DNA of 58,556 nucleotides from Halobellus captivus (lineage in GTDB: Archaea > Halobacteriota > Halobacteria > Halobacteriales > Haloferacaceae): NCBI RefSeq assembly GCF_007655485.1, contig NZ_VJXQ01000007.1, forward strand, positions 20,706-79,261. Reading direction: 5' to 3'. Positions 17,624 through 57,134 of the stretch are shown here, piece by piece. Position numbers and translations under genes: made by a program. Under the pieces are notes generated by a model. That model saw only the letters and a list, made by a program, of their open reading frames with translations, was not told the origin of the DNA and searched no databases. Positions within the stretch are counted from its first letter, which is position 1. Each line of letters starts with the position of its first letter.

Positions 17624-17653
17624 CGCCTCCGCCCCTCCGCGGGCGCAGAAAAA
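17624..17653 (-). promoter_or_regulatory. Leader palindrome element (SWIM gene)
   Basis: Plus-strand order is GCCTCCGCCCCTCCGCGGGC, then GCAG and five A. In the coding direction it reads A/T run, short palindrome, gene start 19 bp later. One of about fifteen such elements; the palindrome here is imperfect. Confidence 0.6.
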
Positions 17654-17654
17654 C

Positions 17655-17696
17655 TTAACCAACAGAACGGAAGGGATCCATCACTCTGTTGGTTAA
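17655..17696. promoter_or_regulatory. TTAACCAACA dyad, copy 2 of 4
   Basis: Half-sites TTAACCAACAGA (17655-17666) and TCTGTTGGTTAA (17685-17696), a perfect 12-bp inverted repeat with an 18-nt spacer. It overlaps the stop codon of the upstream ArdC/ImmA gene and precedes the SWIM gene. Confidence 0.75.
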
Positions 17697-18640
17697 CTGT
17701 GTTGGGACGAGGATTCGCTTTCGAGCACGTCGATGAGCTCTTCTGCTGTGGAACTGATCCGTCCGAGCCGCTCGCGAACGACCTCGGAATCGTCCGACTC
17801 CCACGCAGCGAGGTAGAACGCCGATCCGCTCGTGTCGAGCCCGCAGTACCGCCCAACGACGTACGCGACGGCTTCGGCCTCGACTTCGCGTTTTGCCCGC
17901 TCGGTGTCGTCGTCGACGTCGAAGTGGAGCAGAGCGTGGGCGTACTCGTGAATTAGCGTCCGCGCGAGGTCGGCCTCGTTCTCCCGATCACGCACCTCGA
18001 CGAGCGGCTGAACGTCGACGAGGCTCAGCTGCTCGCAGATGCCCTTTGCCTCGCCGTGGGTCCACTCCTCGGCTGGAACGATCTGCACCGTCACGCCGAG
18101 GTCGTCAGCGGCGTCAGTCAACTGTTCGACGAGATTGCCGGCGTCGCCGGTCGCTTCCGTGTCCAGGTCGGGAAGCGGTTCGCCCTCGGTCTGGGAGACG
18201 TCGAACACCGGCGCAGGCTTGAATCCGACCAGGCCCTCGGACCACTCCTCGGGCGGCGTCTCGTCGTACTCACAGTCACTGTCCTCGTGGTAGCTCGGCG
18301 AATTCTCGCACTCCGGGCACTGCTTGGTGATGATCGGCGCCCAGATCCAGATGGCCGATTCGCCCTCCGTGACGTGACGGTTGAACTCCTCCTGCCACGT
18401 CCGGTAGCCCGCCACCCGGCTCGCCTCGGGACACTGCCGCTTGATGAGGAGCGTGTTCCGGTAGGAGTAGTCGTGGAAACGACTCTGGACATCGAGCCAC
18501 TCCTGGAACTCGTCGCTGGTCTGTGCGTCGTCGACGCCGGCGACGAGGTCGTCGATCCACTGTTCGATGGTACTGTTCATCTCGTCTGATCGCGTGTCGG
18601 TCTGGTCGAAGGAGACCGACGAGTCTCTGGTCGTAGACAT
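17693..18640 (-). CDS. ArdC-like N-domain fused to ImmA/IrrE zinc metallopeptidase
   Basis: A 315-aa protein. Residues about 25-105 resemble the ArdC N-terminal ssDNA-binding domain (FHDYSYRNTLLIKRQCPEAS then GYRTWQEEF), and about 105-125 hold a Cys/His cluster. The metallopeptidase motif HEYAHALLH is at 231-239, with a downstream E-x-E (253-255) as third zinc ligand. ArdC proteins are plasmid anti-restriction factors that protect entering DNA; ImmA-type peptidases cleave repressors. I use the ATG at 18640, since the leader palindrome (18689-18715) excludes the upstream start. Role in establishment after transfer is inferred. Confidence 0.85.
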   Translation of the reverse strand: MSTTRDSSVSFDQTDTRSDEMNSTIEQWIDDLVAGVDDAQTSDEFQEWLDVQSRFHDYSYRNTLLIKRQCPEASRVAGYRTWQEEFNRHVTEGESAIWIWAPIITKQCPECENSPSYHEDSDCEYDETPPEEWSEGLVGFKPAPVFDVSQTEGEPLPDLDTEATGDAGNLVEQLTDAADDLGVTVQIVPAEEWTHGEAKGICEQLSLVDVQPLVEVRDRENEADLARTLIHEYAHALLHFDVDDDTERAKREVEAEAVAYVVGRYCGLDTSGSAFYLAAWESDDSEVVRERLGRISSTAEELIDVLESESSSQHS

Positions 18641-18688
18641 CGTGTTCACCGAATCGAGTTCACGGCGACAGCGTCTGTTCAGACCGCG

Positions 18689-18715
18689 CCGCACCCCTCA
18701 GGGGCGTTCAAAAAC
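18689..18715 (-). promoter_or_regulatory. Leader palindrome element (ArdC/ImmA gene)
   Basis: CCGCACCCCTCAGGGGCGTT followed by CAAAAAC on the plus strand. The palindrome is CCCCTCAGGGG; the start codon lies 49 bp downstream. Confidence 0.75.
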
Positions 18716-18726
18716 CGCTCTGTCGG

Positions 18727-19074
18727 TCAGCGGAGCTCGTGGCGTTCGTCCGCGAAGCCGACCATGACGAGGTACTCAAGGAACTCGTCGAACCGCTCGA
18801 CGTCACTGGGCGTGTCGGTCGCAAGATGACGCGCCCACTCGATGGCCCACTGGAAGGCGGGATCCGTGCCGCCCTTGCCGTGAATGTACCACCACCGGGC
18901 CGCTTTCAGCACGACGAGCGGATTCGTCGGCGGCTGCTCGCCGGCGAGCCCACGGGTGATAGATTCGATTTCGTCGGGGACGTCGGCGGGATCGACCTCC
19001 GTTGATTGCGTGTTGTCGATATCGACCGGAATCTCGTCGATCGAGACGTTGTCAGGACGCTGTTGTTGACTCAC
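18727..19074 (-). CDS. Small haloarchaeal plasmid protein, function unknown
   Basis: A 115-aa acidic protein that I do not recognise. The N-terminal 50 residues are rich in Asp/Glu/Pro and probably disordered; the C-terminal part (about 52-110: NPLVVLKAARWWYIHGKGG) looks like a small helical domain with conserved Trp/Tyr. The start at 19074 is fixed by the leader palindrome 34 bp upstream. It lies between the ArdC/ImmA and DUF6610-like genes, each with its own leader, so these are separate transcription units under a common type of control. Confidence 0.75.
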   Translation of the reverse strand: MSQQQRPDNVSIDEIPVDIDNTQSTEVDPADVPDEIESITRGLAGEQPPTNPLVVLKAARWWYIHGKGGTDPAFQWAIEWARHLATDTPSDVERFDEFLEYLVMVGFADERHELR

Positions 19075-19107
19075 TGGAAGTCACCTCTGAGAGCTTTCGA
19101 AGAAGCC

Positions 19108-19134
19108 CTCGCCCTCTCTGGGGGCACGAAAAAC
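19108..19134 (-). promoter_or_regulatory. Leader palindrome element (115-aa protein gene)
   Basis: CTCGCCCTCTCTGGGGGCAC followed by GAAAAAC on the plus strand; the start codon is 34 bp away. Confidence 0.65.
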
Positions 19135-19145
19135 AGGTCGAGAAG

Positions 19146-20147
19146 TCACGCCGGCGGGAGGTAGACGCTCTGCTCGCCGACGATCTCCTCCAGGTTGTTT
19201 CGATGGCGGTGGCTGAAGTAGCACTCGTAGCTGCAGTATCCACAGATCGCGCCGGTATCGTATTCGACCACGTACGGGCCGCGGCGAGTTCGCCAGACGT
19301 TCGTCCCGCACTCGGTACAGGCGGCGTCCTCGAGATCGGCAGGACTCGGTCCCTCGTACTCGACGTTGAGCCCCTCGTTTTGCGGTGTCGTTTCGGGCCA
19401 GATTCCGTGGGTCTTCCAAAACTCACGGACGCAAGCGAGGCTGTGGCGCACCGTCTTTCGCACGGTGACGTGGTCGGCGTCGCGACCGCTGTCGTCCCAG
19501 CCGTCGGCCGTCCAGAACTCACCGAACTGCGCGCCGCGATGCAGCCCGTTCCAGTCGACGCCGACGATGTCGGCTGGTGGCTCGTCCGTGAGTGTCGGTC
19601 GGGTCAACTGTCGAATGGCATCGAGCTGCTTAGGCGGACTCCCGCCGAGGATGTGGACGCGCCGCCCTCTCCAATCGGCAGGGTCGGAGAACTCGTGGGC
19701 CAGGCGGTCGGCGTATCCCCGTGAATACCCGAGGACGAGGGTCTCGGGAATCGCGCCGATCACCGCCTGCGACTTCGGAACGACGATGAGCTCGGCCTCG
19801 GGGTAGCTCGCTTGGATCTCACGAGCCGCAGCGACGTGGGCGTCGACGTCGTCGATTTCGTCGACGTCCCCGATGACCCCGACCTGTGGTTCGTACTCGA
19901 AGAAACGGTCGACGAACCGCTCCAGATCGGGATTCCGGAAATCGTTGTCGAGCATCCCGACGGGGAGGCTAAGGTTCTGATACTGCGCCTCCTGGTACCC
20001 ACAGTCCTCGCGAAAGCCGGGAAGGAACCCGAGGCCGAAAGCGTCGACGACAAACGGGGCTCGATGCAGAAACGCCACGTAGTCTGCCTGTCTGGCGGCG
20101 GCGATTTCGCGGGCGGTGCTGGTGCTGGAGCTCAGCTCGAGGGACAT
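19146..20147 (-). CDS. DUF6610-like plasmid protein with C-terminal zinc ribbon
   Basis: A 333-aa protein. The central part (about 85-175) has a TIM-barrel look, with strand motifs such as ELIVVPKSQ, LVLGYSRGYAD and VHILGGSP, which recall tRNA-guanine transglycosylase-like folds. The C-terminus (about 283-325) has CTECG and CGYCSYEC, a zinc ribbon. The DUF6610 label is from memory of haloarchaeal plasmid proteins. No catalytic residues can be assigned with confidence. It is preceded by both the leader palindrome (20179) and the TTAACCAAC dyad (20220). Confidence 0.75.
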   Translation of the reverse strand: MSLELSSSTSTAREIAAARQADYVAFLHRAPFVVDAFGLGFLPGFREDCGYQEAQYQNLSLPVGMLDNDFRNPDLERFVDRFFEYEPQVGVIGDVDEIDDVDAHVAAAREIQASYPEAELIVVPKSQAVIGAIPETLVLGYSRGYADRLAHEFSDPADWRGRRVHILGGSPPKQLDAIRQLTRPTLTDEPPADIVGVDWNGLHRGAQFGEFWTADGWDDSGRDADHVTVRKTVRHSLACVREFWKTHGIWPETTPQNEGLNVEYEGPSPADLEDAACTECGTNVWRTRRGPYVVEYDTGAICGYCSYECYFSHRHRNNLEEIVGEQSVYLPPA

Positions 20148-20178
20148 GATTAGGATCGCGAGGCCGCTGCTGGTTGCC

Positions 20179-20206
20179 CCGCACCCTTTCAGGGGCCCGA
20201 AAAACC
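20179..20206 (-). promoter_or_regulatory. Leader palindrome element (DUF6610-like gene)
   Basis: CCGCACCCTTTCAGGGGCCC followed by GAAAAACC on the plus strand; the start codon is 32 bp away. Confidence 0.7.
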
Positions 20207-20219
20207 GAGACTCAGGCAG

Positions 20220-20261
20220 TTAACCAACAATAAGGAAACCCACGCGGAATGTGTTGGTTAA
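20220..20261. promoter_or_regulatory. TTAACCAACA dyad, copy 3 of 4
   Basis: Half-sites TTAACCAACA (20220-20229) and TGTTGGTTAA (20252-20261), spacer 22 nt. It lies between the leader of the DUF6610-like gene and the stop of the next gene upstream. Confidence 0.75.
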
Positions 20262-20270
20262 GAACAGAAC

Positions 20271-20492
20271 TTACTCTTCGCCCTTACGTAGCTCTTCAGC
20301 CTTCCACTTGAGTCGGCGCAGGATCTGCGTCCGATTCTGGTGGGCGTTCTCGTAGGCAACGCACTCCTGGAGGGTTTCCATATCAGGAATCGTCTCGATC
20401 CCTGCCTTGATCAGGCGCGTGTTCGGTGCTTCAAGCCGCTTTTCAGGCGGAAATTCGTCTGACGCCTCTGAGTCGTCTGTAGAAGTACCCAT
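20271..20492 (-). CDS. Small helical protein, function unknown
   Basis: A 73-aa protein that I do not recognise; a disordered acidic N-terminus followed by two helices (TLQECVAYENAHQNRTQILRR without a break is helical and charged). The start is the ATG at 20492; an upstream GTG-type start would fall into the leader element at 20501-20527. It ends 10 bp before the third TTAACCAAC dyad. Confidence 0.65.
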   Translation of the reverse strand: MGTSTDDSEASDEFPPEKRLEAPNTRLIKAGIETIPDMETLQECVAYENAHQNRTQILRRLKWKAEELRKGEE

Positions 20493-20500
20493 AACGGATG

Positions 20501-20527
20501 CCTCCACCTATCGAGGGCACGAGCAAC
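20501..20527 (-). promoter_or_regulatory. Leader palindrome element, weak copy
   Basis: CCTCCACCTATCGAGGGCAC followed by GAGCAAC on the plus strand. The arms CCT/AGG are shorter than in other copies. Confidence 0.5.
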
Positions 20528-20632
20528 AGCAGAGAATTGAAGCAGTAGATCTTGAGAAGATGTAGCCACTGCGAATGAGACCATCAAAATAGAGACCTGC
20601 CACGACAGGATTCGCACTACCTCGAAGCCCAA

Positions 20633-21041: not shown

Positions 21042-22199
21042 TTAGCCCATCGCCTCTTGGAATCGCTCACGTAGCGCATCTTCGCGTTCTTCGAATTGCT
21101 CGACTTTCTCCTGCAGGTCGTCGCTGACGCGCTCGATGCTCGCCAGCGCTCGTTCGCCGGCCAGCGACGCCTGTGACCCGTCGTCACCGTCCGCCGCTAA
21201 CTCCTGCTCGTACGCCTGTTCGACGCGCTCGATCGTGCCTTCCGGATTGAACAGGATGTCGTTGGCGATCCGAACGTACTGATCGAGGGATGCCCCCTCT
21301 TTCCCCTGGAAGAAGTGGGTGAGGGCGTACGTCGCGCCGGAATGCAGCGTCCACATATCGATCTCGAAGGGGGACGCCGCATTGGCTTCTGCATCGCCGG
21401 CGGCACGCTCGGCTAGGTAGTCCGGGAAGCCCAGGAGCGTGTAGAACTCCGTGACGGTGAACGGAAGTTCGGAGAAGTCGAGGTCGATTTCCTGGGCGTC
21501 CCGGATGAACTCGAAGAGGTCATCGGCGACGAGTTCGACCTGTGCGAGGAGTTCCTCCCACCAGGTGCGGAAGTTCCGTACGTCGCCGATGTGTTTGATG
21601 ACCTCTTTGTCGGTGAGCGAGCGCATCGTGTTCGAGCAGTAGCCGTCCTGGGCGAACCCCTCCACGTAGACGGCGTGCTCGCCGAAGAAGTCGTAGCCCG
21701 ACGTGACGCCCATCGTGATCGGGTCCGACCGGCCAGGAAGGCGCACCTCGAGGCCATCGAACATGATGTCCATGTGGACCTCGCCGCCGCCCCGGTAGCG
21801 CCGAATCTCGCCGAACATCACCTCGCCCAGCGGCGTCCCGTCGATGGTCTCCTCGCGGAGGACCTCCTCCAGCGGCCCGTAGACGTCGACCGGGTTGATG
21901 ATCGAGTACGAGTCAGTCGGAATGTGAAATAGTGACTCTTCCTCGGCGTCTCCATCTGCCTCTGCTTGTAACCGCGACGGCTCGACAATTGCGTTGAACC
22001 GCTCTGTTTCGACCCACTCGTCACTGTACGGATTGCGATACGCGACTGCTGTATCGACCGCTTGCGGGAGGGTTCGAATCGCTTCACTGAAGCTGATCGG
22101 TTCGGGACCTCCGTGTTGCTCGGCGTACCACTCGGGTAGTTCGGTGTCGGTTCGCCCATCGAGGCCTGCGAAGACCGTAGCTGTCTCTGGGTCTTTCAT
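21042..22199 (-). CDS. DUF932-like plasmid/phage-type protein
   Basis: A 385-aa protein. The middle part (about 130-230) contains VEVRLPGRSD-like strands and a VTSGYDFFGEHAVYVEGFAQ / CSNTMRSLTDKEVIKHIGDV region. That pattern fits the DUF932 (phage/plasmid-like) family: a beta-rich core, a conserved GC-x-NT motif and then a long helical tail. The C-terminus (about 345-385) is a probable coiled coil (VSDDLQEKVEQFEEREDALRE). I use the ATG at 22199; the longer frame crosses the leader palindrome at 22234. The function of the family is not established. Confidence 0.7.
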   Translation of the reverse strand: MKDPETATVFAGLDGRTDTELPEWYAEQHGGPEPISFSEAIRTLPQAVDTAVAYRNPYSDEWVETERFNAIVEPSRLQAEADGDAEEESLFHIPTDSYSIINPVDVYGPLEEVLREETIDGTPLGEVMFGEIRRYRGGGEVHMDIMFDGLEVRLPGRSDPITMGVTSGYDFFGEHAVYVEGFAQDGYCSNTMRSLTDKEVIKHIGDVRNFRTWWEELLAQVELVADDLFEFIRDAQEIDLDFSELPFTVTEFYTLLGFPDYLAERAAGDAEANAASPFEIDMWTLHSGATYALTHFFQGKEGASLDQYVRIANDILFNPEGTIERVEQAYEQELAADGDDGSQASLAGERALASIERVSDDLQEKVEQFEEREDALRERFQEAMG

Positions 22200-22233
22200 A
22201 TGTACTCCGAAGGCGCGAAGCGTTCCGATCTGC

Positions 22234-22260
22234 GCCTCCACCCATCGAGGCGCAAAAAAC
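22234..22260 (-). promoter_or_regulatory. Leader palindrome element (DUF932-like gene)
   Basis: GCCTCCACCCATCGAGGCGC followed by AAAAAAC on the plus strand; the palindrome arms are GCCTC and GAGGC. The start codon is 35 bp away. It overlaps the 3' end of the adjacent upstream gene by only a few bases. Confidence 0.65.
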
Positions 22261-22264
22261 GACG

Positions 22265-22507
22265 CTACGGTTGCCGACACTCGTGAGCTTGGATTCGCTC
22301 TGGAAGCCCGACTCTTCCACAGAGCGGACACTCGACGAGTGGTGTCGGCGGGAGATTCTGCCACGCAGCAAGGGCTCCTCGGAGATGGGCCTTCGTCTCC
22401 GCCGACTTGGCGCTTGCGAGGGCATTGGTGAGGTGCCAGTGGAGTTGTTCTCTGTTCGTGAAATCGTCTGTATCGGGCGTCGGGATAGACTCGTCTGTCT
22501 CTCGCAT
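22265..22507 (-). CDS. Small zinc-finger protein following the HNH gene
   Basis: An 80-aa protein ending in CPLCGRVGLPERIQAHEC, a C2HC-type finger. A longer start at 22600 is possible but would overlap the HNH gene by 77 bp; the ATG at 22507 lies 17 bp after that gene's stop, so I prefer it. Third gene of the unit 23479-22265 (44-aa protein, HNH, zinc finger). Function unknown. Confidence 0.65.
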   Translation of the reverse strand: MRETDESIPTPDTDDFTNREQLHWHLTNALASAKSAETKAHLRGALAAWQNLPPTPLVECPLCGRVGLPERIQAHECRQP

Positions 22508-22523: not shown

Positions 22524-23348
22524 TTACCCCTCATCCCCTCGTACGGGGAGAGAAACACCCTCGGGACCACCTCGCTCTGGTGGCCGTGTGGCGTCGACAA
22601 TCGTATCCAATCGCTGCGGGGCGACGGCTTCCCAGATGAGATGATGCTTCGAACAGACCGTCACGAGATTCGAAACTCGGTTTGCCTGTTCGTAGTCAAA
22701 CTGCCCGTCGGGGCCGACGAAGAATTTCCGTGGGAGCAGATGGTGGACAGAGATGTCCTTCCCAACCTGCTCTTGATGATCTGCTTGAGTCATCTTACAC
22801 CACGGCGTTTGGCACTGGAAATCATCACGTTCCAATGCTTGCCGCCGTTGCTCCGGCCAATTTGGCCCGTACGGAATCTCTGAACGTTCTTGGTAGGACC
22901 GTGGTTGTGAGAAGCCAGCTTGGTTGAGTGCCTCTTCCCACCCGCCAAACCGGTGGTCATACGTCCATCTGTGATACTCCCCAATCCGATCCATCTCCCC
23001 GCTCGATGGCGGGCGACCGAGTTGCTCCGCAAGGCGGTCAATCTCATCCACCAGGTCCTGATCGGTGAGTCGGAACTTTCGATTCGGAGCGTAGCCAGCC
23101 TCACGAAGCGCCTCGTTCCAGCTCCCGAATTTCTTCTGGCAGACGCGCTGGGAGTACTCCCCGTGCTCGCTCATCTCCTTTGCCGTCGGCGGTTTTCCTA
23201 ATACGTCTGCGACACGCTGAATGTCGTCGAGAATTATGTCCGCGTCCGTTACGATCTGGTCGCGGCGATGGACCGCGGTTACGTGGCCTCCCAACTCATG
23301 GGAGGTCGAAAATGCCTCGCCACAGTAGTCACAGGTATGGTCGGTCAA
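22524..23348 (-). CDS. C2H2 finger + homing-associated repeats + HNH endonuclease
   Basis: A 274-aa modular protein: a C2H2-like finger at about 5-26 (CDYCGEAF...HVTAVH), two copies of the homing-endonuclease-associated repeat (about 38-88 and 92-145, each ending F-G-(S/G)-W-x-EAL-x-x-AG), then an HNH nuclease domain (CQTPWC...VHHLLPRKF...NLVTVCSKHH). The start is a TTG (23348) overlapping the stop of a 44-aa gene, with a strong Shine-Dalgarno-like GGAGGTGA just upstream. The paralogue at 56119-57081 has three repeats. These nucleases may act as free-standing homing enzymes or as restriction-like defence; the sequence does not decide. Confidence 0.88.
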   Translation of the reverse strand: MTDHTCDYCGEAFSTSHELGGHVTAVHRRDQIVTDADIILDDIQRVADVLGKPPTAKEMSEHGEYSQRVCQKKFGSWNEALREAGYAPNRKFRLTDQDLVDEIDRLAEQLGRPPSSGEMDRIGEYHRWTYDHRFGGWEEALNQAGFSQPRSYQERSEIPYGPNWPEQRRQALERDDFQCQTPWCKMTQADHQEQVGKDISVHHLLPRKFFVGPDGQFDYEQANRVSNLVTVCSKHHLIWEAVAPQRLDTIVDATRPPERGGPEGVSLPVRGDEG

Positions 23349-23479: not shown

Positions 23480-23505
23480 AACTCGGTGATGGGGAGTGGA
23501 ACCTC

Positions 23506-23532
23506 CCGCACCCCTCTCAGGGGCAATAAATA
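23506..23532 (-). promoter_or_regulatory. Leader palindrome element (HNH operon)
   Basis: CCCGCACCCCTCTCAGGGGC followed by AATAAAT on the plus strand; on the coding strand the ATTTATT run is a good TATA box, and the palindrome CCCCTGAGAGGGG sits just downstream of it. Confidence 0.75.
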
Positions 23533-23796
23533 CTATCCGCCCGGAATCGTACTTGAATCTCAGCCCGATGAATAACCTACAGGAGGCCGGAAAATGCTCG
23601 ATGACCTATCAACGTACTACGAGTGTTTCTATCCGTTCGTAAAATAATTCTGCGAGTCGTGCTGAATTCAGAGGAGCTACTCACTGATATCCTCCATCAG
23701 AATTTATTAGCCGACGAGCGTTTTAACAGAGCAGTCTCGGTAACTTTCCAATAACCCGGAAATTATGACTGGAATGATAAATGGCCACTAAGCCAG
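23533..23796. other. Intergenic region without recognised gene
   Basis: About 260 bp, A/T-richer than the flanks, between the HNH operon promoter and the stop codon of the 298-aa HTH gene. No ORF with coding character, repeat or palindrome of note. Confidence 0.6.
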
Positions 23797-28582: not shown

Positions 28583-29497
28583 TTAGCTCCGTATCCACTC
28601 CAGAAAGGTTCCGGCATCTTGTACAAAGTTGTAGGCTCCATAGAGGAGCCAGCCGACGATCAGTACCCCCAGCGGAATGTAGACTCCGAACCAGAGACTC
28701 GCGGCGACGACAAGCAACCCAGTTATGAACGCCGCTTTCCGCAGCACTCGTCGTTTGAGCCAGCGTCGGTGTCCGTCGAATCCTTTGTCGGAAAGCAACA
28801 GCGGCACGTCGTCAGTCCCGCGGAGAACCGGTTCACCCTGATCAACCTGTATCTCACCGCAAACGCTCACTTCGTCATCTTCCAGCAGCGGACGCGCCTC
28901 CAGCAGATAGCGATTCAAATCAATCTCATCGTTTTGTCGCTGCACGTATCCTGCAAACCGCCGGAAGGATCGATGTTCGATGCGATTCCTGACATAAGTG
29001 TACCAGGAGTCCCAGAGATACACGGATAGCCGGTCGTGCTTGTTGATGCCGCCGATTTCTAACTGCTTCAGTCGTTCGGCGTCAAGTGCGGTTCGAAGCC
29101 ATGACGGATCGATACGAACCGTCTGACTCCCAGCGTCAACACCGAACCGACCCCATTCGATGCCTGAGGCGAACGTGTGCCAATGCTGGCGCTCCCACCC
29201 CCAGTCTTCGATTGTGAGGTCACTGTTGGAGTTGTCCGAGAACCGACCCTGCCAAAGATACGCACCAACAGGCCGGTCAGCGTCTTTTACGGCCGCAGCA
29301 GCTGTTTCAACTGGTTCTTCGACCGTCAGCTCTCCCGTGAGAGCGACTGACTCACCGTCGATGATTGACGACGGCGTGTCGGTATCGCCCGACGGAAGCG
29401 ACCGAAGAACGAACAACGCAGTCAGCATGCGGTATCCGTGGGCCAGTACGATAATCACGAAGACGGCGATCAGGATCAGGACAATCGTGGGCGGCAT
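28583..29497 (-). CDS. GIDE-domain-like membrane protein
   Basis: A 304-aa protein: one N-terminal TM (PPTIVLILIAVFVIIVLAHGY), a soluble domain (about 40-245) with the layout of the GIDE/MULAN intermembrane domain (VALTGELTVEEPVE, then AYLWQGR and W...F-GRFGVD repeats), and two C-terminal TMs (about 250-300). In eukaryotes this domain belongs to a mitochondrial E3 ligase; in archaea it lacks the RING finger and its role is unknown. I use the ATG at 29497; the longer frame to 29755 is low-complexity and not coding. Confidence 0.7.
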   Translation of the reverse strand: MPPTIVLILIAVFVIIVLAHGYRMLTALFVLRSLPSGDTDTPSSIIDGESVALTGELTVEEPVETAAAAVKDADRPVGAYLWQGRFSDNSNSDLTIEDWGWERQHWHTFASGIEWGRFGVDAGSQTVRIDPSWLRTALDAERLKQLEIGGINKHDRLSVYLWDSWYTYVRNRIEHRSFRRFAGYVQRQNDEIDLNRYLLEARPLLEDDEVSVCGEIQVDQGEPVLRGTDDVPLLLSDKGFDGHRRWLKRRVLRKAAFITGLLVVAASLWFGVYIPLGVLIVGWLLYGAYNFVQDAGTFLEWIRS

Positions 29498-29922
29498 GCG
29501 TGGATGGAGATGGGGTTGAGGGAACCTCAGTGGACGATCGTTCAGCGTTATTTCGCTGTGGAGACGGTCCTCGGCCGGGCTTGCTGGCTGTATAAGTCTC
29601 CCGTGATGAGTGCACGGGGGAGAGCCTTGCGCCACAGGGGGGGGAGGCGGCATCACACACCGAAGAGTGCGATTCGGTTGAATATTTTGAGAGGTGAACT
29701 TCACAAGAACTGATGCCATTGCACACGATTTTCGGGACCGTATTCGAGAACGCAATCACGAGATAGTCTCAGCATGCCCGTCGAGATCGGTGTCGTAATT
29801 GAACACATCAGCGTACGTCGGTTCGGTGACCCCCGCACCCCTCTCAGGGGTTCAACAAACAGGATGGCGTAGCGTTCGGCAACGTATTTGGCAGTTGCAA
29901 CGTACAGTCCACATAATTGAGG
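29498..29922. other. Gap with an orphan leader palindrome and a possible gene remnant
   Basis: No intact gene in 425 bp. On the minus strand a short frame after the palindrome reads EPTYADVFNYDTDLDGHAE then a stop at about 29757; it has codon use like a real C-terminus but no proper start. An alternative 35-aa ORF (29701-29808) in another frame looks non-coding. Confidence 0.5.
29832..29860 (-). promoter_or_regulatory. Leader palindrome element without an intact gene
   Basis: CCCGCACCCCTCTCAGGGGT followed by TCAACAAAC on the plus strand, one of the best-preserved copies. It faces the gap 29498-29822, where no full gene exists. Confidence 0.65.
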
Positions 29923-31287
29923 ATGGCTGTACTGGACGATCTCTCGGGGTTCGAGTTCGAGGACGTGATGGAGGACGTGTTCCGGAACCTCGGCTACGAG
30001 AACGTCCGCCAGGCCGACCGCACTGCTGACGAGGGTCGCGACGTCATCATGGAGGAGGTCGTCGACGGCACCCGCCGCGCGATTATCGTCGAGTGCAAGC
30101 ACACGGGGACAGTCGGGCGGCCGGTCGTCCAGAAGCTTCACTCAGCGATCGCGACGTTCGACTTCGACGGCCCGAAACGCGGAATGGTCGTCACGACCGG
30201 CCGGTTTACGAACCCTGCTCAGGAGTACGCCGACCGCCTCCAGCAGAACGACGACCCACATCCAATCGAGCTGCTCGACGGCGAGGACCTCCGGGAGATC
30301 GCCGACGAGATCGGCCTCGACCTCTACAACGGTCGCATCGAGATTCTCTGCGACGAGACCCTGCGCCCGTACGACCCGGCTGTCGACGTCGACGCGCCAG
30401 TCACGGAGGCGTTCCGCGACATTGAGAACATCGAGGCCGCCGACCTCCCAGACCCACACTCATCGGTGACGTTCCGCCCGGTGGTCGCGGTCACCACGGA
30501 CACGAACGCTGTCTTCGAGACATCGGTGGGCGTCATCCACCGGATCAACGACCGGACCCGATTCGTCGCCCACGCCGAACGCGGGCAGCCACAGGTCGCG
30601 GACAAGGACGTCGCGACGCTGGTCACCGAGAACCTCCACGCGACGGTCGACCTCGACACCGAGCAGTTCGCGGAGGTGTTCGACGACGCCGAGGAGCGCC
30701 GGTTCGGGCAGACGCAAACGGAGTACAAGGAGTGGGCCGTCGAGCGCCTCCAGCAGCACCACACGACGACGGTCACCTACACCGGCGACAACAACGTCAC
30801 CTACAACAAGACCTGCGAGCCGAACCGCTCGGACATCTCCGTGCAGTCGATCGAACCAGTGTACCTCCCTGAAGTTCGGCACACCACCGACATCCAGGCG
30901 TACACCTACCCCTACGAGTATCACGCGGCAGGCCCGTCACGAGTGACCGCCGAGGACGGCATCCATCGGTGCATCCACTGTGACACGAGCGGCGGCGACG
31001 AGACGTACACCTACTGTCCGAACTGCGGGGCAATCGCTTGCTCCAGCCACATCAAAACGGAGCGGCTGGAATGCGAGCCGATCTGTACGGGCTGTGCAGT
31101 CACCGAGCGGTTCGCGCTGAAAACGAAGTACTTCTACGACGAGGAGAACCTCGAAGCGTTCCACGAGGAGTACGCCGACATGCCCCTCCACGAGAAAGCG
31201 ATGGAGAACAAGTGGCTGGCCGGTGGGAGCGTGGTCGCGACGCTGCTGCTCGTCGTCGGACTACTCGTCATCGGCGGCTTCATCTGA
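29923..31287 (+). CDS. Mrr-like restriction endonuclease-fold protein with zinc ribbons and C-terminal TM
   Basis: A 454-aa protein. N-terminal Mrr-type nuclease domain (about 1-120): GFEFEDVMEDVF, EGRDVI (catalytic Asp), IIVECKHTG (the E-x-K) and VVTTGRFTNPAQEYA, a complete PD-(D/E)xK site. A middle region without known fold follows (about 150-330). About 345-400 has CIHC, CPNC and CTGC zinc ribbons, and the last 25 residues are a TM helix. Mrr enzymes cut modified DNA; a membrane anchor could place this one at the DNA entry site (inference). Start at ATG 29923 rather than TTG 29917. Confidence 0.85.
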   Translation: MAVLDDLSGFEFEDVMEDVFRNLGYENVRQADRTADEGRDVIMEEVVDGTRRAIIVECKHTGTVGRPVVQKLHSAIATFDFDGPKRGMVVTTGRFTNPAQEYADRLQQNDDPHPIELLDGEDLREIADEIGLDLYNGRIEILCDETLRPYDPAVDVDAPVTEAFRDIENIEAADLPDPHSSVTFRPVVAVTTDTNAVFETSVGVIHRINDRTRFVAHAERGQPQVADKDVATLVTENLHATVDLDTEQFAEVFDDAEERRFGQTQTEYKEWAVERLQQHHTTTVTYTGDNNVTYNKTCEPNRSDISVQSIEPVYLPEVRHTTDIQAYTYPYEYHAAGPSRVTAEDGIHRCIHCDTSGGDETYTYCPNCGAIACSSHIKTERLECEPICTGCAVTERFALKTKYFYDEENLEAFHEEYADMPLHEKAMENKWLAGGSVVATLLLVVGLLVIGGFI

Positions 31288-33182: not shown

Positions 33183-33229
33183 ATCAGTGATATAACCGAC
33201 GAGTACAAATCGGTAATGGTCGAGCCGCG

Positions 33230-34159
33230 TCACTCGGCTTCCTGGACCGTCTCGAGGAGCGAGACCGCGAGGCGAGCGGCGTCTTCCGCGGTCTCCCCGA
33301 GGACGTAGGTAATGGGTTCGATCCCGAATGCGCCGCTGTGGTAGATGACTCGCGGAACGACATCCCGAGACGCGAACCGATCCAGGAGTCGCTGGTTCCG
33401 GTCATCGTACTCGGCGTCGAACTCCATCGGGTCGAGCCCCCGGGCCCGAGCGGTCGAGAGGAGCGCATCGTCGGTTGCGATGTTGACCGCACCACGTAGC
33501 CCGTCGTCCTGGGCCATCGCAGCTAGCACGACCGTCGCGACGTGTCGCGATGCCCCGAATTCCGGGTTTGCTGGGATTTCGACGCGACCGTCGACCGCAT
33601 AGATCCGCCCGGGAATCGCTGCAACCTCGGAAACGTCGTTCGCACCGGGGAGCGCAGATCCGACGTTCGTCCCGACGTTGGGGACGTATGTCGCCATCCC
33701 GGGTGCTGTCGCAAGGATGCGTGCCGCCGTCCGGACGTCCGTCAACGTCTCCCGTTCTGCGGCGAGGCGCTCGTCGGTGCCACGGACACAGAGGTCACAG
33801 CCGAGACCGGCGAGCGAGGGCATCGCCTCCTCGTGCAGTTCACACACCGGGCCACGGTCTTCAAACGCCCGAACGAGCGCGAGCAGTTCGTCGAGCGCCT
33901 CGTACCCATCCATGTGTCCGGAGGCGAACCCCTCGGCGATACGCGTAACCGTCTCGGCGGTCAGCGGATGGTCTTCGATGCGTTCTTCGACTGCCACGTC
34001 GCCGCTGATGTACTTCGAGACGGCGGCCTGGGAGACGCCGATATGTTCCGCCACCTCTTGCTGAGTCATCCCACGATTAGCCAGTTCCCCGGCAAGACAG
34101 ACACGGATGGTGGGGAGGACCCGCTCAACGACGATCTCGCTCGGGAGGTGGAGTGACAT
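33230..34159 (-). CDS. thiR: ThiR: HTH regulator with ThiN-like ligand domain
   Basis: A 309-aa protein. HTH at about 10-60 (RGMTQQEVAEHIGVSQAAVS), a short Cys motif (CELHEE...CDLC), then a ThiN-type domain (about 130-305): VPNVGTNVGSALPGAND, GRIYAVDGRVEIP, GASRHVATVVLAAM and GIEPITYVLG. Archaeal ThiR proteins of this architecture bind thiamine phosphate through the ThiN domain and control thiamine genes. I use the ATG at 34159, as the extension to 34444 runs through the promoter region of the divergent permease. Its ThiN half is a paralogue of the one in thiDN next door. Confidence 0.92.
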   Translation of the reverse strand: MSLHLPSEIVVERVLPTIRVCLAGELANRGMTQQEVAEHIGVSQAAVSKYISGDVAVEERIEDHPLTAETVTRIAEGFASGHMDGYEALDELLALVRAFEDRGPVCELHEEAMPSLAGLGCDLCVRGTDERLAAERETLTDVRTAARILATAPGMATYVPNVGTNVGSALPGANDVSEVAAIPGRIYAVDGRVEIPANPEFGASRHVATVVLAAMAQDDGLRGAVNIATDDALLSTARARGLDPMEFDAEYDDRNQRLLDRFASRDVVPRVIYHSGAFGIEPITYVLGETAEDAARLAVSLLETVQEAE

Positions 34160-40897: not shown

Positions 40898-40926
40898 GCG
40901 CGCCACTCTCTCGCTGGCGCGAATAG
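40898..40926 (-). promoter_or_regulatory. Leader palindrome element, variant
   Basis: Arms GCGCCA and TGGCGC around CTCTCTCGC, followed by GAATAGA on the plus strand; start codon 38 bp away. Confidence 0.5.
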
Positions 40927-41051
40927 ACGACTACTGGAGAAGGCGATGATTCAGATTATTTCACGAAACAGGTCTCCCATCCTGTATCAGTGGGGGCGGA
41001 TTCGTTCAATACAGCCAATCCCTCGACAATTTAGGGACACTTTCGACATTC

Positions 41052-42071: not shown

Positions 42072-43334
42072 TTACGGGTTTGTGCGCTGTTCGTTGGGAT
42101 TTGTCCCGAGTTCGGGGGCGTCTGTGGTCGAACGCCACTCGTGATTGCCCCACTGGAACCGCACGGGCCGCGCCATCGGCCTGACTTGCTTATCCGTGTT
42201 CCGCCTGAGGAACGTCTCCGAGGCGGTGAGATCTGAGTGTCCTTCGAAGCCACAGGGACAGGTCAGTGTCTCCCGATGCCGAACCGTATCCGTTTGCTCG
42301 CCACACTCCGGACATGTCTGGCTCGTCCAGGCTTCGCTTTCCTCTTCTACCGCAATTCCATGTTCCTCACAGACCGACTGAAGCTGGTCGATGAACTTCT
42401 TGAATGCCCAGAAGTTCTCTAATTTCTCGTTGATTTCAGGGGATGGTTGTGTCTTGATGACCCCCGTTAGATCGCCAAAATACACCGTTGCGATCCCTTC
42501 GTCGTACAACCGCTCGACGAGGTCACGGATGAGGTCCTTCTGGGCATGGGTCCGTTGGCGGGAGCGTTTGCGGTAAAGTCGGCGGATACGCTGGCTCGTG
42601 TCCTGATCTGGCGGCAGCTTGCACGATAAACGTGCAATCTCTTCGGTTGTTGATCGGAACTGCTCGAACAGCTCCTCACCATCGTAGAGGTATTGCTCAC
42701 CAGTAGTGGTCGTACAGGCAACGAGGTTGTTGACACCCAGATCGAGGGCGGCTTCCTCCGAAGCCAGTGGTGAATCCAGTTCCGATTCGTCAATCGTCAC
42801 TGGTTGATATGCCCGATAGGTGTCTTCGACCTCATCATACTGGATCTCCAGCTCACCCTGTTCGCCGGACCATTTCGGATCTCCACGGACCTCCAATCGA
42901 AGGCGCTCGAAATAGCCCATGTGGTACTCGTCTTTGAGGTCCTGGCCGACCGGAATTTCGACCCGGGAGTGTTCGCCCCACTGGATTTCGTATGAGTCGT
43001 TTCGAACGAACAGCCGGAGGTCACGCCCGTCGTCTGCGTTTCCCCAGTAGCCGGGCGGGGACGCGTCCTCACCGCTTTCCAACAGCGCGAAAAACGAGTT
43101 CCAGGCGGCGTTATTCTTCCGTGTCACCGTCTGGACGCCGGCCGCGCCGAGCTGGCCTTTGTATTGGCCGCGAAACTCATCTGTCTCCCAGATGCTTTCG
43201 TCGTCGAAGAACTGCTGCCGGCGGGCATAGGTCAGCTCGTTCCAGAAGCTCGCCGTCGCGTCCATAACCTCCTGTAACAGGGCCTCATCCGACTCCGAGC
43301 GGGGCCGCACTTCGAAGGTGTTGGTCCGCTTCAT
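42072..43334 (-). mobile_element. tnpB: TnpB of an IS200/IS605-type (IS1341-like) element
   Basis: A 420-aa TnpB, the RNA-guided nuclease ancestor of Cas12. RuvC pieces: [13 protein letters not shown] (first Asp), [10 protein letters not shown] (second motif), [11 protein letters not shown] (third Asp). The zinc finger is [13 protein letters not shown]...CPCGFEG. In most TnpB proteins the second motif has a Glu before D-L; here it is G-D-L, which appears usual for haloarchaeal members. No TnpA is nearby, so this is a stand-alone tnpB. Its ATG overlaps the stop of a 64-aa gene (ATGA), an odd coupling for a transposon gene. Confidence 0.9.
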
Positions 43335-43525
43335 CGTTGGCTCACCTCCTGGTCAAGCTGTGCCCACCGACGTGGAATGTAGCCGTAGCGCTCGATCTCG
43401 GCGGCCTGTTCACGGAGGAGCCCGACGAGGACTTGCTCGGGGACACCTGCCTGAGCCTGTTCGGCCAACAGCCTCTGGAGCGCATTACGGGCGTCCCCGA
43501 TTTCCGCAGGATCGCTATCGTCCAT
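43331..43525 (-). CDS. 64-aa helical protein coupled to tnpB
   Basis: A small protein ([20 protein letters not shown], then [18 protein letters not shown]), mostly helical and charged. Its stop overlaps the tnpB start by 4 bp, and its ATG lies inside the 3' end of the gene at 43515-43724. No family recognised. It may belong to the plasmid gene set with the tnpB inserted after it, or be a TnpB partner; co-occurrence elsewhere would decide. Confidence 0.65.
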
Positions 43526-43724
43526 CGATGCGCTCCTGGGTATCCCCGGTTTGGTATTTGAATGTTGGCGGGGTGATCCCGCTCGGAGAATTACTCTGTT
43601 TCTGTTCAAACACGGCGCCGGCGTGTGGGTCAGCGCCGACCAGACGGTCGAACACCGTCTTTCCGGTGGCCACCGCGTCGTCGTGGGTCGATTCCTCTAC
43701 TAGTGTGTATATGACCATGTGCAT
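43515..43724 (-). CDS. Truncated paralogue of the 163-aa protein
   Basis: A 69-aa frame whose first 40 residues match the N-terminus of the protein at 40369-40860 (MHMVIY, GKTVF-RL-GA, AVF), after which the sequence diverges (EQKQSNSPSGITPPTFKYQT) and stops early. Either a short form of the family or a gene cut by rearrangement. It has its own leader palindrome (43780). Confidence 0.6.
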   Translation of the reverse strand: MHMVIYTLVEESTHDDAVATGKTVFDRLVGADPHAGAVFEQKQSNSPSGITPPTFKYQTGDTQERIDGR

Positions 43725-43779
43725 CTCGAACACCTCGAAGCGCCGACGCACCGAGGATCGTTGCTCGCTCTCCCGGCTG

Positions 43780-43810
43780 CACCGGCAATGGGTGCCGGCG
43801 CAAAACAAAC
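43780..43810 (-). promoter_or_regulatory. Leader palindrome element, variant
   Basis: Arms CACCGGC and GCCGGCG/GGTGCCGG-type repeats (GCACCGGCAATGGGTGCCGG) followed by CGC and AAAACAAAC on the plus strand; start codon 56 bp away. Confidence 0.5.
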
Positions 43811-43958
43811 GCTACCCGCTCAGCAGAATGGAATTCAAGAACGAGGCGTCTGGCACGTCCGGGTAGTACTCTACGGGGTGGGTGTCATGAAATGCGGACT
43901 GACTACGATGGCCGGGGCTTCGAGAACGCCTCGTCCCTGAGCAAGCGCCTCGATCGGT

Positions 43959-48044: not shown

Positions 48045-48052
48045 GGGGTCGC

Positions 48053-48082
48053 CCCCGCACCCCCTGTCGGGGGCGATAAACC
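48053..48082 (-). promoter_or_regulatory. Leader palindrome element before a gene remnant
   Basis: CCCCCGCACCCCCTGTCGGG followed by GGCGATAAAC on the plus strand; palindrome CCCCCTGTCGGGGG. Confidence 0.7.
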
Positions 48083-48123
48083 GACGCGAGAGCTGCCTCC
48101 CGAGGCGTGGCCGGCGACGCCAG

Positions 48124-49426: not shown

Positions 49427-50353
49427 TCAGGCGACCTGTTCCTCCAACGTATCCCGGTGTGCCCGAACAGTCGCCTTCGAGGCGTTCGCCACGTCCGCGG
49501 CCTCGGATTGCGTCAGCCATCGGCCCTCTTCGCGACCGGCCTTGTAGAGGCAGGCTGCGGCGAACCCGGCCGGATGAACGCCCGTCGTGACGCCCCGATC
49601 CTCGGCCTGCTCCGCCAGGGTTCGGGCCCGCTGTCGAATTTCGTCCGGACACTCGAGGTCCGAGGCGAGTCGCGGCACGAACATGCTGGGGGAGACGGGC
49701 TCAGCGGGGAGGCCCAGCTCTTCGTTCAGCGTTTTGTACGCGTTCGTGACTCGTGACTCCGCGACGCGGGCCATCTCGCTGACGTCGTCCACTAACCGCG
49801 AGAGGCCGTTGCACCGGCAGGCCCCGTAGACGCTGGCCGCGGCGATGGCCTCGATGGATCTGCCACGAAGCAGATCCTCGTTCTGGGCGCTCCGGAAGAG
49901 CTGGCACGCCTGGTCACGGACCGAATCGGAGAGTTCGAGGGCACTCGCCAACCGACGCACTTCGCCCAACCCGTGTGCGAGATTCCGTTCCGCTTTCGAG
50001 CGCCAGCGACCACGGGTCTGCTCACGACGCATCCGCGCGAGTCGCCGTCGCTTCTGCCCCGAGAGTTCGTTCCCCTTCGCGTCGGTACCGCACCCGATCT
50101 CCGTCGACAGGCCGCGGTCGTGGCGGGCCGCAGTGAGTGGAGCACCCGTTCGCTCGCGCTCCTCGTCGTCGTACGCCCGCCACTCCGGCCCGTGATCGAT
50201 ACGCTGTTCGTCGATAACCAGGCCACAGTCCTCGCAGACCGTTTCGACCGCGTTCGTGGTGACTCGGCCGTCGCACTCGGGACACTGATTCGCACTCGAT
50301 TCCGTTCGGACGTCTTCGTCGAATCCGCTCTCGTAGATGTCTCTGGTTGCCAT
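49427..50353 (-). CDS. tfb: Transcription initiation factor TFB, plasmid-encoded
   Basis: A 308-aa TFB: N-terminal zinc ribbon (CPECDGRVTT...CEDCGLVIDE), B-reader/linker (EWRAYDDEERERTGAP), and two cyclin-like repeats (about 115-205 and 215-305) with SIEAIAAASVYGACR and GFAAACLYKAG. TFB recruits RNA polymerase after TBP binds TATA. Haloarchaea carry several TFBs that tune gene sets, so this one may serve the plasmid's own promoters, including its own leader type (50391). I use the ATG at 50353. Confidence 0.95.
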   Translation of the reverse strand: MATRDIYESGFDEDVRTESSANQCPECDGRVTTNAVETVCEDCGLVIDEQRIDHGPEWRAYDDEERERTGAPLTAARHDRGLSTEIGCGTDAKGNELSGQKRRRLARMRREQTRGRWRSKAERNLAHGLGEVRRLASALELSDSVRDQACQLFRSAQNEDLLRGRSIEAIAAASVYGACRCNGLSRLVDDVSEMARVAESRVTNAYKTLNEELGLPAEPVSPSMFVPRLASDLECPDEIRQRARTLAEQAEDRGVTTGVHPAGFAAACLYKAGREEGRWLTQSEAADVANASKATVRAHRDTLEEQVA

Positions 50354-50390
50354 CGTTTTCACCGTGTTCAGGGACCCGCCAGTACAGCGA

Positions 50391-50418
50391 GCCCCTCACC
50401 CATTGAGGGGTAAAATAG
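50391..50418 (-). promoter_or_regulatory. Leader palindrome element (TFB gene)
   Basis: GCCCCTCACCCATTGAGGGG followed by TAAAATAG on the plus strand; arms CCCCTCA/TGAGGGG. Start codon 38 bp away. Confidence 0.7.
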
Positions 50419-50506
50419 AAACAACGACAGGCTCGGCTACTTCTGCTATCTGCTATGGTTGGGGCGGTTGATTAATGGTTGTCCGCTCATATTTTCTTTA
50501 TAAGGC

Positions 50507-55546: not shown

Positions 55547-55900
55547 AGCTACAAATCTGCCAGCACCCAGATAAAAGATAACCATATACTGAAATTGGAG
55601 TTTGAAAATCAGACGAACTGATTAAAAGTTACAACTCCTCTGCCCCGTTTCAGGTTTCGCCGGCCTTCGATCCACACTTATGCTGCTTATTCGCTCTGTC
55701 AATCCGACTTTCCCACAGACGGGGCACTCCTGCGAGGGTGTTCACGGCAGGTCGTTCTAGGCGTCCAGCACGGTGTCTAAATGTACTTCCACTATCGGTG
55801 AGTCTGTCGTGTGTCGGGCTTCGCAGAGGTAAATCCGAAGCCGTTCTAGGTCCGTAAGACTGCGTTCCTCGGATACCGGTACTCGGGGGTACGTTCTGGG

Positions 55901-55930
55901 TGCCTCCGCGCCATCATGGGGGACACAAAC
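55901..55930 (-). promoter_or_regulatory. Leader palindrome element, degraded
   Basis: TGCCTCCGCGCCATCATGGG followed by GGACACAAAC on the plus strand; the arms are weak. It faces the possible remnant at 55757-55900. Confidence 0.4.
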
Positions 55931-56026
55931 AGACTCCATCGCGACAGCGGTCTTGCTCCTCGATATGCCACTCTTGAAGCCTGTGACTCCGGTTGTGGCT
56001 GCCGGCCGACCGTAGGGAGGCCGGAA

Positions 56027-56063
56027 GCGGAGGGTGGGGTGGTGGGGCTTGGGCTGGTCCGGC
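56027..56063 (+). repeat. G-quadruplex-type repeat, copy 1 (3' side of the HNH gene)
   Basis: A 37-bp G-rich block with runs GGG, GGGG, GGGG and GGG separated by 1-4 bases, enough for a quadruplex. It matches the block at 57230-57266 at 31 of 37 positions. The two stand on either side of the HNH gene. Confidence 0.7.
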
Positions 56064-56118
56064 GATAGACTCTCACCTTCCGTCCTTGACTGGGGGGCAG
56101 CTGGGACCGCTTTGTGGC

Positions 56119-57081
56119 TTACCGCGTATCGAGTCGGAGCGGCGACGCTCGTTCCCAGAGATGGTGGTGTTCAGCACACACCGTAACGAGGTTATCCAGC
56201 CGGTTGGCCCGCTCGAAATCCACCTCACTCTCGTCGTCGCCGAAGACGCTTAGCGGTCGGATATGATGCACGTGGAGTCCTCTCGTGAATGATTCGAGAT
56301 GCGCCTCCTGCGTCCACTCACAGCCCGGCGTTTGACAGGTATAATCGTCGCGTTCAAGGGCTTTCTGACGTTGTTCATCCCAGTTGTCCCCGTACTCGCG
56401 CCACTCGTGGACTGGCTGTTCTTTCCAGTTGTGATGGTCTGGGCCAGCTGGACGGCCGACCGGTTCGTAGCCAGCGGCTCGGATCGCGGCTTGCCAGCCC
56501 TCCCAGCGAGTAAAGTAGGGTCGATGCGAGAACTCTCCGTGGTCTTTCATCTCCTGCGCTGTCGGAACCTTTCCTAATTCGTCGGCCAGCCGATGAATCT
56601 CTTCGAGTAATTCCGCATCCGAGATCCGATGCCGCTGGTTGGGGTCGTAGCCTGCTGCCTCGAGTGCTTCGTTCCAGCTTCCAAAGCGATTCTGTGCGAT
56701 TGTGACCGTGAACTCGCCCTCCGAGCGCATGTCGGCCGCCGTTGGCGGCGTCCCGTCCTCCGTTGCGAGCCGTCTAATTTCGTCGAGAAGTGCGTCTTTG
56801 GATACCCGGTGCTGCTTCACCGGTTCGTATCCCGCTTCCTGGAGTGCCTCTGCCCAGCTGCCAAATCGGTTTTTGTACGTTCCAGCTGAATACGCTCCTA
56901 GTTCATTCATCTCTGTAGTTGTTGGAGAACGACCCAGATGGTCGACGAGCCGATCTATCTCGGTCAGTAACTTCGTATCAGAGATCCAGCGGCTGTGGCT
57001 ACTGTTGTGGCCCCCCAGCGCGTCCTGGGTGTCGAAGGATTTTCCACAGACATCGCAGGTTAGGTCACGTTCACCCGTCAT
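56119..57081 (-). CDS. C2H2 finger + three homing-associated repeats + HNH endonuclease
   Basis: A 320-aa paralogue of the protein at 22524. C2H2 finger CDVCGKSFDTQDALGGHNSS, three homing-associated repeats (about 32-85, 88-140, 142-195, each ending F-x-x-W-x-(E/A)A(L/I)-x-x-AGY), and an HNH domain (CQTPGCEW...VHHIRPLSVF...NLVTVCAEHHHLW). One repeat more than its paralogue. The repeats probably read DNA sequence, so a change in number would change target length. I use the ATG at 57081, downstream of a leader palindrome (57105). Confidence 0.88.
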   Translation of the reverse strand: MTGERDLTCDVCGKSFDTQDALGGHNSSHSRWISDTKLLTEIDRLVDHLGRSPTTTEMNELGAYSAGTYKNRFGSWAEALQEAGYEPVKQHRVSKDALLDEIRRLATEDGTPPTAADMRSEGEFTVTIAQNRFGSWNEALEAAGYDPNQRHRISDAELLEEIHRLADELGKVPTAQEMKDHGEFSHRPYFTRWEGWQAAIRAAGYEPVGRPAGPDHHNWKEQPVHEWREYGDNWDEQRQKALERDDYTCQTPGCEWTQEAHLESFTRGLHVHHIRPLSVFGDDESEVDFERANRLDNLVTVCAEHHHLWERASPLRLDTR

Positions 57082-57104
57082 CTGTCCTACCCGGAGCGCT
57101 CGTA

Positions 57105-57134
57105 CGCCCACACCCTTCTCGGGGCCAGATAAAC
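57105..57134 (-). promoter_or_regulatory. Leader palindrome element (second HNH gene)
   Basis: CGCCCACACCCTTCTCGGGG followed by CCAGATAAAC on the plus strand; start codon 24 bp away. Confidence 0.6.

Follow-up and report, generated by a model that had tools for sequence, protein, structure and literature searches.

T-run and hairpin elements before same-strand genes of haloarchaeal plasmids: candidate promoters on an incoming single strand

Introduction

In a stretch of 58,556 nt from Halobellus captivus (NCBI RefSeq assembly GCF_007655485.1, contig NZ_VJXQ01000007.1, forward-strand positions 20,706 to 79,261; the whole stretch is called the window), many unrelated minus-strand genes carry the same short A/T run and inverted repeat just before their start codons, and the question is what this element does. 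An earlier note, made from the sequence alone, listed fifteen copies and proposed a plasmid-wide regulon or promoter class, with the A/T run at the place of a TATA box and a palindrome downstream where a bound protein or RNA structure would block initiation. The family proved to be real and larger than noted, and three features beyond that note emerged: a conserved loop, a link to conjugation genes and the use of one strand per plasmid. Tentatively, we read the elements as DNA-hairpin promoters that would be used on the incoming single-stranded plasmid, as a functional analogue of the bacterial Frpo. To our knowledge, little is known about the establishment of conjugative plasmids in archaea.

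Results

The element is a T-run joined to a hairpin

The structure of the element was investigated with a covariance model, R1, built from 22 Halobellus captivus copies, 8 of them in the window; it was used in place of an initial structural descriptor that was too loose, its shuffled counts overlapping the real ones. Read on the minus strand, the element joins a T-rich run (approximately GTTTTTY), at a fixed geometry, to a hairpin of 6–9 bp downstream. The loop (approximately GA[GT]GGGTG) is constant and asymmetric and the arms vary with compensating changes, both in 128 distinct rows aligned to R1 and in rows aligned with MAFFT. Arm types among copies of the same genome include GCGCC-, CCCC-, GCGCCGGC- and others, the loop being common to all. 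In the R1-aligned rows, pair 17-35 is C-G in 62, G-C in 49 and T-A in 6, pairs 18-34 and 19-33 are C-G in 126/128 and 122/128, and A accounts for 24 of the 640 letters in the five core columns of the T-run. The T-run lies outside the conserved stem; in the fold of one copy it is partly paired.

Pairing was then compared with shuffled sequence. The MAFFT alignment holds 60 rows from other genomes and was not fitted to R1, but its rows were picked as R1 matches. In it, 89.5% of the cells were paired, against 67.4% in shuffles; covariation was 0.508 against 0.131, and at most 0.114 in slid registers; and further pair types numbered 17 against 12.5, with 0/500 shuffles as high on each of these measures. 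Pairs changed on both sides (5) were not above shuffles (4.9). Stem covariation in the first, 22-copy alignment was 0.328 against 0.163 in shuffles (0/500 as high) and dropped once partners were slid. A separate profile that omits the stem columns and uses only T-run and loop was trained on 24 rows from the window's genome. Tested on 49 loci from other genomes or records, it gave 231 matches (191 distinct), compared with 16 in shuffled sequence of the same total length. The 231 held a mean of 4.08 Watson-Crick pairs out of 6, against 1.69 in the shuffled matches, and at least 5 pairs were present in 102/231 against 0/16. Taken together, these computations show that the element is folded, although folding energy is not special for every copy, since the z-score of one copy out of four did not stand out on either strand.

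The inverted arms of the earlier note are real; the structure is nevertheless not a plain palindrome, being a hairpin with an asymmetric conserved loop and variable arms. A palindromic operator bound in duplex form, as by a dimeric repressor, was rejected because it is the loop that stays fixed, the arms varying between copies with compensating changes.

A variant was also seen, in which a T-run precedes a hairpin that differs in both arms and loop, one form combining GGGGC-type arms with the loop GACGGACTG. It has a low profile score and occurs upstream of position 19475 in locus L064, 7092 in L018, 27199 in L021 and 22905 in L065.

Copies in the window

The letters reported for the fifteen copies are present in the window, and R1 recovered 14 of them at 16.6–33.1 bits, six of which lie outside its training set. 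All 14 face the minus strand, as had been claimed; the copy noted at 43780 has a reversed loop and for that reason matches on the plus strand as well (18.3 bits). The copy at 55901 was not recovered by R1, and no open reading frame (ORF) of at least 50 amino acids starts within 260 nt of it. The recovered copies are as follows.

17620–17659, minus: element, R1 23.4 bits, before gene 16778–17605 (weak SWIM match below the Pfam cut-off)
18683–18721, minus: element, R1 20.0 bits, before the ArdC-like gene 17693–18652 (Pfam ArdcN)
19102–19140, minus: element, R1 20.6 bits, before small gene 18727–19074
20172–20211, minus: element, R1 33.1 bits, before the DUF6610 gene 19146–20147 (Pfam)
20495–20534, minus: element, R1 17.7 bits, 2 nt before small gene 20271–20492
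22229–22268, minus: element, R1 29.0 bits, before gene 21042–22199
23499–23538, minus: element, R1 18.0 bits, upstream of the HNH-repeat gene 22524–23348 (TTG start as called, provisional)
29826–29865, minus: element, R1 29.8 bits, upstream of ORF 28583–29755 (start provisional), in a divergent gap shared with an Mrr gene
39946–39985, minus: element, R1 30.5 bits, before the DUF7567 gene 39530–39937 (Pfam)
40895–40934, minus: element, R1 19.4 bits, before gene 40369–40893
43776–43815, minus: element with reversed loop, R1 16.6 bits, before short ORF 43515–43751
48048–48087, minus: element with 9-bp stem, R1 31.4 bits, −13.4 kcal/mol as single-stranded DNA (ssDNA)
50387–50426, minus: element, R1 20.1 bits, before the TFB gene 49427–50362 (Pfam TFIIB)
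57101–57140, minus: element, R1 28.3 bits, before the HNH-repeat gene 56119–57081 (Pfam)

The ORFs 40369–40893 and 43515–43751 (short), each with an element before it, have similar starts (MHMVIY...), and an OrfB_IS605/TnpB-like gene (42072–43334) sits between them.

Elements lie just before start codons and on one strand

Position was examined for R1 matches of at least 16 bits (n=67) on five publicly annotated plasmids, covering NZ_CP098519 entire, 100 kb of NZ_AP017571 (103,081 bp), 100 kb of NZ_CP070334 (105,947 bp), and 50 kb each of PHS1 (NC_010366) and pNG600 (NC_006394). A same-strand gene follows 66 of the 67 matches; the remaining one (L020:33814) falls inside an opposite-strand gene annotated as P-type ATPase. 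The distance from element end to annotated start is 1–53 nt in 65/66 and 497 nt in one, and the distance to the upstream gene ranges from −5 to 817 nt. Since the former is narrow and the latter wide, the element belongs to the downstream gene. A termination signal of the upstream gene, with the T-run as U-tract, was rejected as its sole role, the upstream gene being on the other strand for 12/66 elements.

Same- and opposite-strand genes with a gap of at least 45 nt were compared in the complete gene tables of the five loci. Within the span of the elements, 64/110 same-strand genes have one against 0/27 opposite-strand genes (p 4e-9), and over the whole loci the counts are 64/145 and 0/51; no opposite-strand match on these plasmids exceeds 13.6 bits. 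The earlier note had named random or intragenic positions as the outcome that would speak against a class of start-proximal elements before unrelated genes; with a single intragenic match among 67, that class is borne out.

The usual promoter signal was sought before the same genes. In 51 opposite-strand genes the AT fraction peaks at −28/−27 from the start codon (0.78/0.78), whereas the 64 element genes are GC-rich there (0.23/0.23). The T-run is set back from the start codon by about 32 nt or more rather than lying at the usual −27, and with so few A letters in its core the placing of the A/T run at the TATA position did not hold up; a canonical haloarchaeal TATA promoter was rejected on the same figures. 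A TATA-like regular expression matched 8/38 opposite-strand and 1/65 element genes, a weak test on a hand-picked subset. Upstream of the T-run, no AT-rich signal at a fixed distance was found in 49 own-genome copies. Judging from its position, the element seems to stand in for the usual promoter signal and not to supplement it.

A second plasmid-wide motif, the inverted repeat TTAACCAACA-N20..23-TGTTGGTTAA (at most one mismatch per arm), in some cases touches the T-run of an element. There are 108 pairs in 1.36 Mb of partly redundant loci, 93 with a spacer of 21 or 22, at window positions 17655–17696 and 20220–20261 and in L014, L018, L021, L023, L028 and others. It looks like a duplex operator or partition-type site.

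Distribution among Halobacteria

In the genome of the window, 41 of 42 R1 matches of at least 20 bits fall on three plasmid-like contigs, C19 (that of the window), C21 and C2, and the remaining one on C12. The three contigs make up 200,000 of 3,351,536 bases. All 41 matches, which include the majority of the 22 training copies, face the minus strand. Such a concentration goes beyond chance. An R1 match at E ≤0.5 is present in 45 of a set of 60 genomes (own included), where lone weak matches may be chance, and 138 of 292 sampled Halobacteria genomes (own included) have one at E ≤0.01. A phylum-wide sample of 196 genomes gave 21 with a match, all labelled as the same order or closer. In 1.26 Mb of fetched sequence there were 314 R1 matches up to E 2; the best 150 of these fall in 49 loci, none with both strands. 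Use of one strand per plasmid is nearly always seen, the exceptions being contig G051:C7, with clusters on both strands, and weak opposite matches (17–18 bits) in L037 and L041.

In locus L009, a transposase-like ORF (4162–5403; TnpB by appearance) has one element 32 nt upstream (5436–5475) and a second at 5758–5797.

Elements are linked to conjugation genes

The genes around the elements were compared between plasmids. On three of them a transfer region has the order xseA/xseB, hypothetical genes, VirB4, large ATPase and, in two of the three, primase; on the same strand it is followed by a DNA-binding/replication factor A gene, TFB, many small genes, DUF6610 and an ArdC-like gene. The replication factor A label is that of the annotators, Pfam giving no match for the protein. 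A relative of the window's SWIM-like gene lies further along in all three plasmids read across the transfer operon. The order TFB, DUF6735, DUF6166, DUF6610, ArdC-like is kept between four plasmids, and DUF6610 is an element gene in the six records examined. A TFB gene lies in the element block of the window, NZ_CP098519, NZ_AP017571, NZ_CP070334 and pNG600; none is present in the 50 kb of PHS1 examined. Two further window genes belong to this comparison.

57298–58173, minus: gene in the same block, weak Pfam Ssb-like_OB match (E 6e-4, below the curated cut-off)
4458–4769, minus: relative of a gene of about 106 amino acids, 75% identity by tblastn

The latter gene is downstream of the SWIM-like gene in other plasmids and about 12 kb away from it in the window.

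Among 59 relatives, VirB4 is present in 18/20 with at least 5 elements and in 11/39 others (p 6e-6, uncorrected for kinship). Among the matches listed (60 per family, with 86 and 30 further records beyond them), VirB4 and DUF6610 are on the same strand in 28/31 records common to both; the exceptions (CP002989, CP007061, NZ_CP054586) have several copies, and single-copy records agree in 20/20. VirB4 and elements likewise agree in strand on 18/22 contigs that have both, among the matches listed. In the genome of the window VirB4 is on another contig (C4), and so the link extends to the window's plasmid by homology.

Discussion

A possible role on the entering strand

Folding, a fixed geometry, a start-proximal site on the same strand, the lack of an AT peak at −28/−27 and the linkage to VirB4 are the computed features from which a role must be argued. 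Our preferred reading, which we hold as possible rather than probable, is that the elements are promoters and act as DNA hairpins, with the incoming strand as template, and that the block they mark serves a large group of conjugative haloarchaeal plasmids as establishment (leading) region. One plasmid strand would enter the recipient through a type IV secretion channel and the hairpins would fold on it; hairpin and adjacent T/A-run might then let transcription begin near the end of the 3′ arm, before second-strand synthesis. The result would be early expression of ssDNA-binding, ArdC-like, TFB and other, uncharacterised proteins. On this view the entering strand should be the complement of the mRNA of the element genes and should arrive with the 3′ ends of the genes leading. 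The plasmid's own TFB is the first candidate for recognising such a promoter.

Single-strand promoters of the Frpo/ssi type were reportedly described by Masai and Arai in 1997. Bacterial plasmids express some leading-region genes from incoming ssDNA through such folded promoters, and among the 300 most prevalent families, anti-defence, single-stranded-DNA-binding protein, methyltransferase and toxin-antitoxin families are on the transferred strand only, according to the part of Samuel et al. 2024 (PMC11541004) at hand, in which the word "archaea" occurs 0 times. What both would share is structured DNA ahead of genes for ssDNA-binding and anti-restriction functions in a leading region, confined to a single strand of the conjugative element; the archaeal block likewise keeps to one strand, has ArdC-like and DNA-binding products and a secretion operon, and carries a folded element before many of its genes. 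The folded duplex of Frpo, however, mimics bacterial −35/−10 boxes, whereas the short archaeal hairpin has a conserved GGGTG loop and leaves the T-run outside, and archaeal hosts use TBP/TFB. Since the T-run lies outside the stem and transcription of ssDNA from the archaeal element is only predicted, the element is not filed as Frpo; in our preferred reading it would work like Frpo without being a member. That these are the first archaeal single-strand promoters, differing from Frpo in sequence and build and used by TBP/TFB-type machinery on incoming ssDNA, is a prediction we offer with slightly more reserve still.

The promoters of the phage N4 virion RNA polymerase are short DNA hairpins with specific loop letters just upstream of the start, a description that would also fit the element and its presumed start. 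N4 uses its own RNA polymerase, however, and none of that type was found in the subset of plasmid proteins searched. The canonical haloarchaeal promoter is TATA/BRE (BRE, B recognition element); it shares with the element an A/T-rich run upstream of the presumed start, but the run of the element is almost all T, fixed to a hairpin and not at −28/−27 of the start codon. The nearest archaeal hairpin met in the literature is the replication origin of Rep-Arvir replicons, a conserved DNA hairpin on haloarchaeal mobile elements; it differs, as the part of PMC13107129 at hand describes one hairpin at the end of the rep operon and not an array before start codons. No archaeal description of such elements was found in the open-access literature searched, preprints and most subscription papers being outside its scope.

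Alternative roles

Whether the element acts as RNA was approached through its mismatched pairs. G-T and A-C cells number 20 and 14 in the elements, a ratio for which 1:1 is not rejected (p 0.39), and 18 and 3 in 12 tRNAs of the same genome (p 0.04 for the contrast). A 5′ untranslated region (5′ UTR) element, in which an RNA-binding protein of plasmid or host would attach to the U-run and hairpin and so control translation or mRNA stability, is made attractive by the site between gap start and start codon and by the conserved loop with variable arms, typical of RNA hairpins. It would have less excess of G-T over A-C than tRNAs do, it would need a promoter where none with a fixed-distance AT-rich signal was seen, in several cases no more than 6 nt separate the upstream stop codon from the start of the element, or the two overlap by as much as 5 nt, and Rfam gave 0 matches at gathering threshold in the window. 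We regard this role as doubtful, though the case against RNA is a weak one: the balance tips only mildly towards DNA, because A-C is not much rarer than G-T and no separate promoter was seen upstream. Doubtful to much the same degree, if anything a trace more so, is a non-canonical promoter in double-stranded DNA, read by the plasmid TFB, in which the T-run replaces the TATA box and transcription begins where the 3′ arm ends; the palindrome would then serve for protein binding or, under supercoiling, extrude as a cruciform. The TFB gene in the block of the window and four plasmids (though not in the 50 kb of PHS1) speaks for it, as does the near-equality of G-T and A-C, expected if both strands matter; the distance from T-run to presumed start fits too, none of the 66 start codons being reached before the 3′ arm ends. 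A duplex-binding protein, on the other hand, would fix the arms and not the loop, the reverse of what is observed, the T-run core has hardly any A, and one strand per plasmid is not explained by such a promoter itself.

Priming of the complementary strand is improbable. In this case the element would be an ssi (single-strand initiation) site, a hairpin recognised by the plasmid primase on entering DNA; primase genes follow VirB4 on NZ_CP098519, and the loop ends in GTG, the template motif that the pRN1 primase needs according to the part of PMC8076596 at hand. In the same source the first two primer bases of pRN1 pair directly 5′ of GTG, which here is GG and not the T-run, and pRN1-type priming was rejected on grounds of this geometry. 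The only domain match of the plasmid primase is to PriS, below cut-off, and priming does not need a location fixed to start codons. Very improbable, finally, is a recombination site of the integron cassette kind or a dispersed repeat such as a repetitive extragenic palindrome (REP) or miniature inverted-repeat transposable element (MITE). An array of small genes in one orientation and a nearby tyrosine-recombinase-like gene are what such sites would lead one to expect; the elements are, however, before genes and not after them, the order from TFB to ArdC-like is kept between four plasmids, and the arms differ between copies, unlike those of mobile repeats. An integron attC was rejected because the elements are tied to the downstream start and not to the upstream stop.

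Several observations weigh against a promoter on the entering strand. The hairpin is too short for a full archaeal promoter duplex and the T-run is outside it, 2 of 5 measures in the 22-row alignment were not clearly above shuffles (5 against 5.0; 14 against 11.3, 37/500), and the G-T/A-C comparison is a weak test against RNA. In the element span, 46/110 gapped same-strand genes have no element at threshold, several of them having weak or variant copies. The polarity of VirB4 is reversed on contigs G029:C103 and G030:C1, G051:C7 has one cluster per strand, and G008:C1 has VirB4 and elements about 370 kb apart on opposed strands. PLSDB types all five annotated plasmids as non-mobilizable, three of them with MPF_T. 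The opposite-strand genes are largely cargo, and the one-strand rule could stem from a one-way gene array.

If the preferred reading holds, each gene behind a hairpin is a candidate anti-defence or establishment gene, including the families DUF6610, DUF6735, DUF6166 and DUF7567, and a single computable mark would locate the leading region and predict the transferred strand. Should the hairpin start transcription on ssDNA, archaeal machinery would be capable of this and the bacterial solution would have arisen twice. Acting in double-stranded DNA or RNA, it would still be a widespread regulatory element without a description in the literature searched.

Other features of the window and related plasmids

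A candidate origin of transfer (oriT) was sought beyond the end of the block by comparing 11 loci, and none is claimed. The gap in the window (about 3967–4458) holds about 5 direct repeats resembling CACCCCCCGTTTTCGAGTTGTAA that adjoin the 3′ end of a Cdc6 gene (2468–3967), which is origin-like and probably marks a replication origin. An Mrr gene (Pfam; 29917–31287, plus strand) has no element and is opposite in strand to the element genes. An annotated restriction endonuclease gene, also on the opposite strand and without element, is found on NZ_CP098519, NZ_AP017571 and pNG600; coordinates of this gene in other loci are L018 11024–12391, L021 29081–30445 and L065 26475–27839. Inside the element block of the window, positions 31821–37724 hold a kinase-ThiN fusion, a ThiN-HTH gene, two TENA/THI-4 genes and an Nramp transporter, on both strands; these thiamine-related genes and the transporter are probably cargo.

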